Below, piece by piece: positions 4,648 through 63,086 of a stretch of DNA of 64,000 bases (its first letter is position 1; the number at the start of each line of letters is the position of its first letter). A program made the translations under genes and the position numbers. The notes under the pieces are model-generated. The model ran no database searches and had not been told where the DNA came from. It saw nothing but the letters and a program-made list of their open reading frames with translations. Source of the stretch: an uncultured Anaerolineae bacterium (lineage in GTDB: Bacteria > Chloroflexota > Anaerolineae > JACIWP01); NCBI GenBank assembly GCA_938049385.1, contig CALIBQ010000010.1, positions 1 to 64,000 on the forward strand, written 5' to 3'.

Positions 4648-5000
4648 GAGAGTGTTGAAAAAGTCCAAACATACAATCTGTGGAAGCGGCCTGGCGGCTG
4701 AAGCCACGGCAAACAACTGCGAAGCCGGCGCCGGCTTTGCAGATGCTGTCGCGGCGCATGAAAGTGATGGGGACTCTCTCCATCTGGCACTTCGCTTGGC
4801 TGAAGCACCAGGTTCATGAACCTGGTGCTTCAGCACCAGGCTTACAGTGCTAATCCCCGAAGGGGATTCGCTTCCTGAGCCGGCGGCTTCCAGCCGGCGA
4901 AAACCTCCGATAAGCGGATGACCGACCTCCTGGGCCAAGGCGAGAGCGACCAATGATGTGCTTGGGTACCACAAGCAGATAAGGTGCTTTTTCCACACCC
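4648..5000. repeat. Composite intergenic repeat (MITE-like family, type A ends)
   Basis: This gap starts with GTTGAAAAAGTCC and ends with a diverged inverse copy (CTTTTTCCACACCC). Its left 60 bases are the reverse complement of the right end of the repeat at 62876-63074. Its middle carries a perfect palindromic stretch around AACCTGGTGCTTCAGCACC and a module that recurs, inverted, at 13734-13853 and 20465-20874. I see no coding potential. Exact boundaries are uncertain and no clear target-site duplication was found for this copy. Confidence 0.65.
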
Positions 5001-40899: not shown

Positions 40900-40971
40900 G
40901 GCGACGTAGCCAAGTGGCAAGGCAGGGGTCTGCAAAACCCTCATTCGCCGGTTCGAATCCGGCCGTCGCCT
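40900..40971 (+). tRNA. tRNA-Cys (GCA)
   Basis: Acceptor stem GGCGACG / CGTCGCC, anticodon stem GGGGT / ACCCT with loop CTGCAAA (anticodon GCA), T arm GCCGG-TTCGAAT-CCGGC and discriminator T, as usual for Cys. CCA is not encoded. Confidence 0.97.
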
Positions 40972-40978
40972 CCTGATG

Positions 40979-41078: not shown

Positions 41079-41250
41079 GACCGAATTCAGGGCTTTTCAA
41101 TACTATAACATTCTGGGCGACCGGAAGTCGCGGCTACAGTTGCGAAGCCCACCTGCATGGGCTATACCAGTCGGCGCCGGCCCACTTCGCAGTCGTTGGT
41201 GCAGTTTCAACTGCCGTTTGTTAGAACATTGAAAAGCCTTGGACCGAATT
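41079..41250. mobile_element. MITE (type B) with perfect 9-bp target-site duplication
   Basis: The element itself is 41088-41241 (154 bp). Its ends are imperfect inverted repeats of about 23 bases beginning CAGGGCTTTTCAATA on the left and CAAGGCTTTTCAATG (read inward) on the right. It is flanked on both sides by GACCGAATT (41079-41087 and 41242-41250), a perfect 9-bp duplication. It has no coding potential and is homologous to the copy at 62681-62835. A full-length transposase partner is not in the window; the 9-bp duplication and the GGGCTTTTTCAAC-type ends resemble DDE-type elements of the IS4/IS5 kind, which is only a suggestion. Confidence 0.88.
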
Positions 41251-41259
41251 TGCAGTATA

Positions 41260-41288
41260 TTGACGGCCAAACCATACGGCCTTATAAT
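41260..41288 (+). promoter_or_regulatory. Promoter of mntA-hepT
   Basis: TTGACG (41260-41265), 17 bases, TATAAT (41283-41288). It lies just 10 bases downstream of the MITE's target-site duplication. Confidence 0.78.
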
Positions 41289-41342: not shown

Positions 41343-41639
41343 ATGATGAAAGAGCTGGTATTGGATACCGATGAATTGATGGCCTTGTGCCGGCGGTACG
41401 GAGTACGGCGTATCGCTGTCTTTGGCTCTGCCGCACGAGGAGAGACTACGGAAGCCAGCGACATTGACCTCCTGGTAGAATTTTCCCGTCCGATTAGCCT
41501 GCTTCAGATGGTGGCGCTGGAGAGACAGCTCTCCGAAGCCCTGGGACGCAGGGTCGATCTGCTCACCGAGGCCGCCATCAGCCCCTATCTTCGTGATCGG
41601 ATCAAAAAAGACCTCCGGGTGATATATGAAGCGCGATGA
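41343..41639 (+). CDS. mntA: MntA-type nucleotidyltransferase antitoxin
   Basis: A 98-residue minimal nucleotidyltransferase. Gly28-Ser29-x10-Asp40-x-Asp42 gives the exact GSX10DXD motif, and Asp72 in RRVDLL is the third metal ligand. In MntA-HepT modules this enzyme AMPylates a tyrosine of HepT and so neutralises the toxin. All catalytic residues look intact. GAGAGG lies six bases before ATG 41343, and its 3' end overlaps the hepT start by 14 bases. Confidence 0.9.
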   Translation: MMKELVLDTDELMALCRRYGVRRIAVFGSAARGETTEASDIDLLVEFSRPISLLQMVALERQLSEALGRRVDLLTEAAISPYLRDRIKKDLRVIYEAR

Positions 41640-41993
41640 TTCGATTTATCTGCACCATATCCTCGAGGCTGTCCTTAACTCGAGGCTGTCCTTAAAGTGG
41701 AGTCCTATCTGGCAGGCAAGGACGAGGAGGCCTTTCACCGGGAAAATCTTTTACAGGATGGGGTGATCCGCCAAATCGAGATCATTGGTGAGGCCGCTAA
41801 GCACCTATCTGCTGAATTGCGGACAAAATACGGGCACATCCCTTGGCAGGATATTGCGGGGATGCGTGATAAGCTCATTCACGATTACTTTGGCGTAGAC
41901 ATTGGCCAAGTGTGGTTGACAGCGACACAAGATTTGCCGGCCTTGAAATCCGAAATAACAGCGATACTGGCGGAGCTGGAAAGCGGAGTTTGA
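41626..41993 (+). pseudogene. hepT: HepT-type toxin gene, frameshifted by a 17-bp tandem duplication
   Basis: The gene starts at ATG 41626 (MKRDDSIYLHHILEAVL) and then runs into a second copy of the preceding 17 bases, which shifts the frame by two and leads to a stop soon after. Removing one copy restores a continuous 116-residue HepT, the normal length, with the motif Arg75-x4-His80-x-Tyr82 (RDKLIHDYF), the RNase and AMPylation site. The 3' part alone (from GTG 41697, residue 19 onward) keeps this motif but lacks the first helix. As it stands the toxin is probably inactive. See the duplication entry. Confidence 0.88.
41662..41695 (+). repeat. Perfect 17-bp tandem duplication in hepT
   Basis: CTCGAGGCTGTCCTTAA occurs at 41662-41678 and again at 41679-41695 without a mismatch or gap. 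Seventeen is not a multiple of three, so it breaks the frame; loss of one copy by slippage would restore it. Confidence 0.97.
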
Positions 41994-60080: not shown

Positions 60081-62564
60081 TCACGGGCCGGCCGGCGCGA
60101 ACAGCTCAGGGCGGTAGTTCCCGGCGGCGTTCCAGAAGCACCATCCCCAGGCGCCGGCGTCCTCCGCCGCCTGCCGCTGGAGGGCCTGCTGTTCCAGCGA
60201 GTACCAGTAGGCCTGGAGCCAGGGCCGCACCCGTACATGGGCCGGCAGTCGGCCGGCGGCCTGAATCACACTGCGGTATATCACCTCATACGGGTAGTCC
60301 GCGGGAACCTCATATCCCAGGTTCCCCGGCCCGAATGTGGAGGGATAGATCATCGGGCAAAGGTAATCGAGATACGGCCCGATATCCTTGACGCGCTGGC
60401 CGATGCCCATGTCCGAGTCTGGCACCACCCAGATGGTCAGCCCGAAGACGTCGGCGGAGACGAACACATCGTAAGGCTCCAGGGCCGCGGTCACTTGTTC
60501 CATGAACGTCCGGATGGCAGTGGTGCGCGTTTCAAGAGTATTTTCCTGTGCGTAGACGATGCTCCCCACATCTCCATCCGATGGGAAGCGCAGGTAATCG
60601 AACTGTATCTCATCGAACCCCAGCTCGGCGACCTCTTTCGCCAGGGCGATGTTGTAATCGCGCACTTCCTGTAGGAATGGGTTGGCCCAGCCCAACCCCT
60701 CCCGGTCCAGCCAGACACTGCCGTCGGCTCTCACGGCGGCCCATGCCGGCCGTGCATGTGCCAGGGGGTTGTCTTTGAACACCACCATACGGGCGATGGT
60801 GTAGATGCCGGCCTCTCTGCATTCTCGCAGAAACTCGCGGATGTCCACAATGTCCCTGCGCAGGACGCCGAACTCCTGCGCCAGCGGGTGGGTGCTCTGG
60901 AAGCCCAGGAAGCCGCGATCACTTTTCATGTCAATGACCACGGCGTTCAGCTCGGTGCTCTTGACCAGCTCCAGCAGTTCCTGCAGGCGGTCGGGGCGTG
61001 TCAGCAGGCCAAAGGGGACGTAAATGCCCTTGGCGCGGAACGCCGGCAGTGCCAGTTCCAGCGCGACAGCCTCGCTGTCCGCGGCGCGGGCAGAACGCAG
61101 GCAGGGCCGGCGCTCCTCGGTGCACCACAGCTCTGGATTCAGGGTCAGGGTGAAGCGGCCGTAGCCGGCCGCTCGCACCGTCAGGGACTGCATCGGGTTC
61201 CAATCCTCCAGCACGAAGGCACCCTCGCCGGCCGGCGGGATAATCTGCCCGACTGCTTTCAAACGCACGCCGGGGATCGGTTCGCCGGTGTCCGCGTCCA
61301 CCACCTGCAGGATGACTTTGTGCGGTGCCAGCAGTATCTCCAGGGGATTACCGCCGGCATATGCCAGGCGCACGGAGGCGTAGTGTGGGGCGCTGGCCTC
61401 CAGCTCCCGTCCGGTCAGAAGGCCGACAACGGTGACGGACCCGCTGTCGTCGGTCATATAGGTGCGGTTGGCAAAGCGCAGGAGCGCGCCGGCCAGGGGC
61501 CGGCCGCTCAATGCATCGCGCACTGTCGCCGGCACCTTGATCTGACGCAGGGTGATGTCCAGCGTTTCCTGGCCAGCATAGGTCAAGGTGGTGCTGAAAT
61601 AGTCCTCCGCGAAGATGGTGATGGGCATGCCGGCCTCCAGCGCCCGCAGGCGGAACGCGCCGTCGGTGCCCGATTCCGCGCGCTGCAACGCGGTTTGCAC
61701 CACTGCGCCGGCCACCGGCAGATGGGTGTCCGCATCGCGGGCGATGCCGGCCGTCCAGATGGGCTGGAGGGGAATTTCGAGGGAGGCTGGTTGTTCCAGC
61801 CATGTCTCCTCGATGAGAGGGCCGCGGTACGGCAGATAGCCCGCCCGTTCCACCCGGAGCTGAAACGGCACGGGGACGCGCAGGAGTTCAAAAATTCCAG
61901 CCGAGTTGGTGAGGGACCAATCGCCGCCGGCCCAGGCGCGAGCGCCGGCCAGCGCCTCACCCGTGTCCGCGGCCGTCACCCGGCCGCGGATGCGCACCGG
62001 CTGTAAGAGGACTTCAAAGACCCGTTCCCCCGTGAAATACGCGGTATCGGCCGCCTCGCCCTCCCAGCGGAGATAGCCCGGCGCTTCGACGGTCAGGTGG
62101 GCCGGCCGCGCCACCCGCTCGATGACGTACTGGCCGTTGTTCAGCATACTCATGGTGCGGTCGTTCGCCAGGACACGCGCCGCCGGCACCCTGTATGTTG
62201 GGTCCAGCGCGTCGGTCAGACGGACGGTCAGGCGCCAGGGGACCAGCCGCGTCTCACAGCGGTACGCGCTCCACTGGAAGCGAGGCGGAGAGCAGGTGAG
62301 CTGGGCGGGAATGTAGCCGGCGGCTTCTACCGCCAGCATATTATCCCCCCGCGGTAGGCGCGCTCGAACGCGCCCGCCCACCGGGGTGACGCGCTCGGGG
62401 CCGGCAGGCAGGGCGATGCGCGCGGCCGGCACCGGCGCGCCCGTTTCTGCATCCACCACAGCCAGCGTCACCGGTGCCTGGTAGTAGGTCAGAAAGATGC
62501 CGGCGATGCAGGCGCTGATGATCAGTGCCGGCAGAAGAACCTGGAGAGCGAACGGTTTCATCAT
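60081..62564 (-). CDS. Exported DUF4015-type glycoside-hydrolase-like protein with regulatory beta repeats
   Basis: An 827-residue protein. A signal or anchor helix (ALQVLLPALIISACIAGIFL) is followed by about six carboxypeptidase-regulatory-like beta units (VVDAETGAPVPAARI, VTAADTGEALAGARAW, VRDALSGRPLAGALLRF, VVDADTGEPIPGVRLKAV). Residues of about 510-827 are a DUF4015-type putative glycosyl hydrolase TIM barrel: ELNAVVIDMKSDRGFLGF, YTIARMVVFKDNP, GFDEIQFDYLRFPSDG and CPMIYPSTFGPGN. The substrate is unknown. ATG 62564 is chosen because an ATG 81 bases upstream would precede the predicted transcription start. Confidence 0.85.
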   Translation of the reverse strand: MMKPFALQVLLPALIISACIAGIFLTYYQAPVTLAVVDAETGAPVPAARIALPAGPERVTPVGGRVRARLPRGDNMLAVEAAGYIPAQLTCSPPRFQWSAYRCETRLVPWRLTVRLTDALDPTYRVPAARVLANDRTMSMLNNGQYVIERVARPAHLTVEAPGYLRWEGEAADTAYFTGERVFEVLLQPVRIRGRVTAADTGEALAGARAWAGGDWSLTNSAGIFELLRVPVPFQLRVERAGYLPYRGPLIEETWLEQPASLEIPLQPIWTAGIARDADTHLPVAGAVVQTALQRAESGTDGAFRLRALEAGMPITIFAEDYFSTTLTYAGQETLDITLRQIKVPATVRDALSGRPLAGALLRFANRTYMTDDSGSVTVVGLLTGRELEASAPHYASVRLAYAGGNPLEILLAPHKVILQVVDADTGEPIPGVRLKAVGQIIPPAGEGAFVLEDWNPMQSLTVRAAGYGRFTLTLNPELWCTEERRPCLRSARAADSEAVALELALPAFRAKGIYVPFGLLTRPDRLQELLELVKSTELNAVVIDMKSDRGFLGFQSTHPLAQEFGVLRRDIVDIREFLRECREAGIYTIARMVVFKDNPLAHARPAWAAVRADGSVWLDREGLGWANPFLQEVRDYNIALAKEVAELGFDEIQFDYLRFPSDGDVGSIVYAQENTLETRTTAIRTFMEQVTAALEPYDVFVSADVFGLTIWVVPDSDMGIGQRVKDIGPYLDYLCPMIYPSTFGPGNLGYEVPADYPYEVIYRSVIQAAGRLPAHVRVRPWLQAYWYSLEQQALQRQAAEDAGAWGWCFWNAAGNYRPELFAPAGP

Positions 62565-62633
62565 TGAGGCAGGATTCCGCGTGCCTTGAAGCTGTTTGCC
62601 CAATCCTGGGGTCCATCCAGTGTAGCAAATACA

Positions 62634-62662
62634 ATTATAAATCATGCAATATGAATTGGCAA
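62634..62662 (-). promoter_or_regulatory. Promoter of the DUF4015-type gene
   Basis: TTGCCA (62662-62657) and TATAAT (62639-62634) on the minus strand with 17 bases between. The leader is about 63 bases. Confidence 0.75.
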
Positions 62663-62671
62663 TCCGCTCTC

Positions 62672-62844
62672 ACATGGGAGCAGGGCTTTTTCAACGCTAT
62701 AACATTTTGGGCGGCTGGAAGTCGTAGCAACGATGGCGAAACCTACCTGTGTGGGCTTGTCAGTCGGCGCAGGCCGACTTTGTAGCCGTTGGTGCAGTTT
62801 CAACTGCCATTTTGTTAGAATATTGAAAAGCCCTGACATGAGAG
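62672..62844. mobile_element. MITE (type B), second copy, 8/9-bp target-site duplication
   Basis: The element (62681-62835, 155 bp) begins CAGGGCTTTTTCAACGC and ends with its near inverse GTATTG-type TATTGAAAAGCCCTG. It is homologous along its whole length to 41088-41241. Flanks are ACATGGGAG (62672-62680) and ACATGAGAG (62836-62844), an 8/9 match for a 9-bp duplication. No coding potential. Confidence 0.85.
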
Positions 62845-62875: not shown

Positions 62876-63074
62876 GAGGGTGTTGAAAAAGTCAAGGTTG
62901 TCATTCGATTTGCGGGTATTGGCTCATCGCCTGGCAGTTGAAACTGCGGCTGTGTTTGCGAAGTCGGCCGGCGCCGACTTCGCGAAGCCTGCGCAGGCTT
63001 CGCAGTCGTTGCCGCGGCTTCAGCCGCCAGGCCGCTCTTCCACAGATTGTATGTTTGGACTTTTTCAACGCCCG
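62876..63074. mobile_element. MITE-like repeat (type A)
   Basis: About 199 bp with inverted ends GGGTGTTGAAAAAGTC and GACTTTTTCAACGCCC. Inside are the palindromes GAAGTCGGCCGGCGCCGACTTC and GCGAAGCCTGCGCAGGCTTC, which would fold into strong hairpins. CATGGCG occurs on both flanks (62869-62875, 63075-63081), possibly a worn target duplication. The right 60 bases are the inverse of 4648-4710. Confidence 0.75.
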
Positions 63075-63086
63075 CATGGCGCGCTG

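Follow-up and report, generated by a model that had tools for sequence, protein, structure and literature searches.

Short ISAs1-type elements of an uncultured Anaerolineae bacterium lie in a fixed register upstream of predicted promoters

Target choice by DNA transposons of bacteria has mostly been described as a weak sequence bias. A fixed distance to promoters has been reported for TnGBS/ISLre2 elements (p-MULT 3) and for the ISKra4 group (p-MULT 4), elements with Mutator-like transposases whose insertions precede the -35 boxes of sigmaA promoters by 13-17 bp; for TnGBS, the authors proposed a contact with the polymerase initiation complex (PMC3942029). The ISAs1 family is not mentioned in that study (PMC3942029), and no report of promoter targeting by ISAs1 was found in the open-access literature.

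The window analyzed here is a 64,000-nt stretch of the genome of an uncultured Anaerolineae bacterium (G000; 3.37 Mb in 85 contigs). The initial annotation had described a 154-bp non-coding element with 23-base inverted ends between perfect 9-bp duplications, next to the promoter of mntA and to tRNA genes, as well as a homologous second copy at 62681-62835 whose flank duplication matches at 8/9 positions. Both copies were confirmed, including the coordinates, and the first one is indeed bordered by a predicted promoter (41260-41288) and lies near tRNA-Cys (40900-40973). The features around copy 1 are as follows.

41079..41087, no strand: left target-site duplication of copy 1, GACCGAATT (sequence)
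41088..41241, plus strand: miniature inverted-repeat element (MITE) copy 1, ISAs1-type ends, 154 bp (own-genome copies, inverted ends, terminal pattern)
41088..41110, plus strand: left terminal inverted repeat, CAGGGCTTTTCAATACTATAACA (end complementarity and terminal pattern)
41219..41241, minus strand: right terminal inverted repeat, read inwards from its end, CAAGGCTTTTCAATGTTCTAACA (end complementarity and terminal pattern)
41242..41250, no strand: right target-site duplication of copy 1, GACCGAATT (sequence)
41260..41265, plus strand: -35 box TTGACG, starting 18 bp from the end of copy 1 (sequence; predicted promoter)
41283..41288, plus strand: -10 box TATAAT, spacer 17, on the copy 1 side (sequence; predicted promoter)
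41343..41639, plus strand: MntA-like nucleotidyltransferase gene downstream of this promoter (PF01909)
41697..41993, plus strand: HepT-like gene, partner of the MntA-like gene (PF01934)

The 23-nt inverted ends of copy 1 are complementary at 83% of positions, and its flanks are identical 9-mers, for which the chance of a perfect adjacent match is about 4e-6. No open reading frame of at least 80 aa is listed in its interior. A search of Rfam returned tRNAs only, with no described RNA family covering the element, and single-strand folds were only moderately better than those of shuffled sequences (z about -2.5); no RNA claim is made. Being short, non-coding, multi-copy, and equipped with inverted ends and target duplications, the element has all the features by which MITEs are recognized. 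The segment 41015-42055 was unmatched in both genomes of the same genus (G001 and G002), and the MntA-like/HepT-like pair (41343-41993) may therefore be a recent arrival.

The second copy is accompanied by a predicted promoter on its other side.

62634..62639, minus strand: -10 box TATAAT, spacer 17, kept without the element in G001 and G002 (predicted promoter)
62657..62662, minus strand: -35 box TTGCCA, starting 18 bp from the end of copy 2 (predicted promoter)
62672..62680, no strand: left target-site duplication of copy 2, ACATGGGAG (sequence)
62681..62835, plus strand: MITE copy 2, 155 bp (sequence and own-genome copies)
62836..62844, no strand: right target-site duplication of copy 2, ACATGAGAG, matching the left one at 8/9 positions (sequence)

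This minus-strand promoter (62662-62634) precedes a long open reading frame (60081-62645). A gene matching this frame directly follows tRNA-Cys, in the same direction, in G001 and G002; here, across 41015-62680 of the window, 21 kb separate the two, which point in opposite directions, and each border is marked by a MITE. Exchange between the two copies was considered as the origin of this local rearrangement and rejected because each MITE retains its own target duplications.

A search for further copies, suggested in the initial annotation, yielded 24 matches in the own genome with 80-100% identity over most of the element's length, besides a group of shorter matches restricted to element positions 37-128. 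The two-end terminal pattern (at most 3 mismatches) was found at 39 ends, nearly all of which belong to these 24 copies, versus 0 for the reversed control. The 9-bp flanks of the 24 copies had no mismatch in eight cases and one mismatch in seven (15 in total). The terminal motif is CAGGGCTTTTCAA with four T in most copies, whereas the five-T form quoted in the initial annotation is peculiar to copy 2. No longer element with ends of the copy 1 type was seen in the own genome.

The exact terminal pattern had no match across all GTDB species genomes or in viral contigs. When 3 mismatches were allowed, the end pattern was detected in 35 of 396 genomes of the class (reversed control: 2 hits), and some of these ends enclose a transposase gene. 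In G218 (locus L065), TAGGG...CAGGG ends enclose 1217 bp with two frames that match NF033564 (transpos_ISAs1) and PF13808, the two halves aligning to NF033564 positions 2-161 and 159-314; in G061 (L068), such ends enclose 1226 bp with ISAs1-like frames and a 9-bp duplication, GCTCGAGGG. Both loci belong to genomes other than the own one. In other ISAs1 subgroups, too, full-length elements begin with CAGGG or TAGGG, and several are flanked by perfect duplications of 8-10 bp. Thus, the transposase between matching ends that the initial annotation had proposed to look for exists in other genera, as full-length ISAs1 elements. ISAs1 genes were detected by NF033564 in 43 of 249 class genomes; the own genome had no match to NF033564 or PF13808, although its 85-contig assembly could miss a collapsed repeat.

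The inverted repeats of the window element start with CAGGG, and its duplications of 9 bp (perfect in copy 1, 8/9 in copy 2) fall within the 8-10 bp of ISAs1. An autonomous partner is missing from the same genome, which a MITE does not require. The window element is best classified as an ISAs1-family MITE with no resident partner, and, as such ends enclose ISAs1 genes in other genera while none was detected in the own genome, the copies appear to be orphaned MITEs. In other class genomes (L052 and L059), ISAs1-type MITEs carry a different palindromic cargo, GGTGACAGTCACC, which resembles sequence beside the own copy L006.

Descent from an element outside ISAs1 (IS5, IS4, or the Mutator-like ISKra4/ISLre2) would have the attraction that a spacing of 13-17 bp to a downstream -35 box is likewise known from Mutator-like insertions (PMC3942029). 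However, CAGGG ends (CAGGGCTTTTCAATG being the ends in question) and 9-bp duplications fit ISAs1, ISKra4 genes are absent from the own genome and the two same-genus genomes, and the ISAs1 and ISKra4 profiles do not align with each other (probability 0.1%), which makes such a parent scarcely credible.

The surroundings of the insertions were compared by reading the flanks outwards from the element ends, 48 in the own genome and 172 in 32 other genomes of the class, part of the latter lying at contig ends; with 12 similar pairs among the 220, not all flanks are independent. Promoters were predicted from consensus, using a sigma70 matrix of E. coli type. An outward TTGAC started at 18 nt in 7 of 48 own and 23 of 172 other flanks, followed in frequency by 17 and 16 nt, and outward TATAAT peaked at 39-41 nt from the element end; the reverse motif GTCAA was flat in the same flanks. 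With the E. coli matrix, the predicted-promoter score at 17-18 stood above that at random offsets (own genome, z = 11.4; other genomes, z = 20.5), and 20 of the 32 other genomes contributed to the register. Promoters facing the element gave no signal in the own set (z = -0.5). At least one side had a predicted promoter at 16-19 bp (mode 18) in 21 of 22 own copies, versus 0-4 copies for every other 4-bp window up to 59 bp. About half of the class flanks had no strong promoter, as expected since one side suffices for each element and some ends are eroded. In two class elements with 10-bp duplications (L181 and L191), TTGAC starts at 19, so that the gap between the duplication and the -35 box is about 9 bp there, as it is with the 9-bp duplications. 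The initial annotation had noticed the neighboring promoter of copy 1; the constant distance across copies had escaped it, and the family had not been named.

One explanation of this register would be random insertion followed by selection sparing only intergenic, promoter-upstream insertions. The copies do tend towards intergenic positions, and the cell should tolerate insertions by which the core promoter is left unharmed; however, any upstream distance would then be tolerable, yet the peak at 16-19 bp holds for 21 of the 22 own copies and recurs in many genera. Such a sharp register excludes selection as the sole cause, and we consider this explanation very unlikely.

A register that belongs to the element itself, through a promoter or UP element borne by it, would account for a promoter distance that is nearly always fixed, but each copy has its promoter outside the target duplication, within sequence that no other copy shares. 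The two same-genus genomes also argue against it. Neither G001 nor G002 has a copy of the element, and both contain the empty sites for which the initial annotation had advised a search. When flanks joined without the element were used as the query, the alignment crossed the insertion point at L004, L005, L006, L010, L015, L017, L019, and L020, several of them being gapped nearby. The -10 box is kept at empty sites, among others at L005 and L017, and at L017 and L019, TTGACC and TTGACA are retained as well. At the copy 2 locus, the alignment covers the promoter side, and both relatives have this promoter immediately behind tRNA-Cys and no element. Since the relatives have orthologous promoters without the element, the promoters predate the insertions; an element-borne promoter is thereby refuted and may be regarded as practically untenable. 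Together with the further copies, the empty sites also uphold the original view that the flank duplications reflect mobility. At L019, corresponding to locus L302 of G002, an element of a second MITE family (B, described below) is present in G000 and G002 and an element of the present family (A) in G000 only, indicating that B is the older at this site.

When the sites were aligned, positions 0-17, which include the duplicated 9-mer, had at most 0.2 bits each, and TTGACA at 18-23 and TGnTATAAT at 38-46 stood out, the TTG of the -35 box being the strongest part. The promoter is faced by the right end of the element in 13 cases and by the left end in 9, so both orientations occur. The offsets of the -35 and -10 boxes are equally variable (sd 1.33 and 1.37), and the data therefore fit either box as the docking point.

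We consider it highly probable that these copies are ISAs1 MITEs mobilized in trans by a transposase that chooses targets upstream of promoters, guidance by RNA polymerase being the inferred part. The gene of this ISAs1 transposase would have been lost from the genome or be absent from the assembly. The transposase would recognize the complex of sigmaA/sigma70 RNA polymerase with a promoter instead of a DNA motif at the cut, and would make a 9-bp staggered cut at about -53/-45, centered about 49 bp upstream of the transcription start, so that the outer edge of the duplication comes to lie 18 bp upstream of the -35 hexamer. The region of about -53/-45 is where the alpha C-terminal domains bind, and these domains, sigma region 4, or upstream DNA are possible contacts. 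Docking on the polymerase-promoter complex is probable because a strong motif is missing at the cut and nothing but the promoter as a whole is constant. Such an insertion would spare the core promoter and replace the DNA upstream of about -54, likely a low-harm spot in open, transcribed regions.

The main rival is direct recognition, in which the transposase would read the DNA of the -35 box (and the -10 box) with no involvement of RNA polymerase. The constancy of the motif, with its strong TTG, is in line with this idea, and the data, which do not separate recognition of polymerase from that of promoter DNA, call for no protein partner. Nevertheless, what would have to be read is a two-part promoter including an extended -10, reaching about 46 bp and with a spacer varying between 15 and 18 bp, which is much DNA beyond the cut site for a transposase of about 400 aa; by analogy, the contact with the polymerase initiation complex proposed for TnGBS (PMC3942029) would also speak for a protein partner. 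Direct recognition thus appears possible but rather unlikely.

The register is not confined to this class. Among 80 ISAs1 relatives taken from GTDB genomes, 35 had their ends set and full flanks; their duplications are mostly 10 bp, and a promoter signal was present at about 8 or 9 bp beyond the duplication (z = 5.7; 0 of 5000 permutations), with examples in cyanobacteria, Syntrophobacteraceae, Methylobacter, Riflebacteria, Clostridium, and Planctomycetes. In other phyla, the signal is weaker, in fewer than half of the elements, perhaps due to the E. coli matrix. Whether ISAs1 transposases of several phyla dock on promoter-bound RNA polymerase holoenzyme, so that promoter-directed integration would have evolved a second time and independently in bacteria, in a family without relationship to the Mutator-like one, is to us an evenly balanced proposition.

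The second MITE family has a copy close to copy 2.

62876..63075, plus strand: family B MITE copy with ends GAGGGTGTTGAAAAAG and a core partly in common with family A (sequence; promoter 11 bp from the right end)

Its ends were also observed near 4648, 13855, 20462, and 20875 of the window (loci L026-L045 and L356-L369), and the own genome has 41 of them; among 298 class genomes, the terminal pattern was confined to the own genome, apart from one single match with 3 mismatches elsewhere. TTGAC lies 10-11 nt from the end in 12 of 48 flanks and TATAAT at 33-34 (z = 10.4). ISKra4 was not supported as the parent of family B, as the ends mismatch and the gene is absent from the own and the two same-genus genomes. 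With its register of 10-11 bp, family B may represent a third promoter-directed system. The two families differ in their ends, yet four palindromic modules make up a core common to both, GGCGGCTGAAGCCGC, GAAGCC..GGCTTC, AGTCGGCGCCGGCCGACTT, and GGCAGTTGAAACTGCC, which corresponds to element positions 37-128 (e.g., 41124-41215 and 62933-63021 of the window).

The register explains why these copies are found upstream of genes, and insertion sites of this kind could mark real promoters in uncultured bacteria that have no transcription data. Since the elements alter what precedes -54, a region bound by regulators, they may rewire regulation while leaving promoters unbroken. A widespread family that marks promoters within a base or two would also offer a testable system of contact between transposase and polymerase.

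Compared with described elements, the window copies share CAGGG ends and 8-10-bp duplications with ISAs1 insertion sequences (NF033564; PF13808 and PF01609), and in other genera of the class, ISAs1 transposase genes are enclosed by these 23-bp ends; the window element, in contrast, has no transposase gene, and no ISAs1 gene was found in its genome. With other bacterial MITEs, they have in common a short non-coding body, inverted ends, target duplications, and tens of copies, whereas one promoter register for nearly all copies is a feature of this family. In yeast, the Ty3 and Ty1 retrotransposons integrate ahead of start sites, at a set distance from them, via contact with the transcription machinery; the set distance is similar, but elements and polymerase are unrelated, and the contact demonstrated there is an inferred one here. 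The p-MULT elements (TnGBS, ISLre2, and ISKra4) also keep a fixed register upstream of sigmaA -35 boxes (PMC3942029), of 13-17 bp compared with 16-19 bp (mode 18) here; their transposases are Mutator-like, whereas those of ISAs1 have PF13808/PF01609 domains and showed no profile similarity in the comparison with ISKra4, and most p-MULT 3 insertions have one orientation, in contrast to the ISAs1-type copies, which occur in both. Promoter targeting is therefore a known behavior, and what is new is its occurrence in the widespread ISAs1 family, with a slightly different register and no fixed orientation, the fixed register suggesting that the transcription machinery of the cell leads these elements to their targets.
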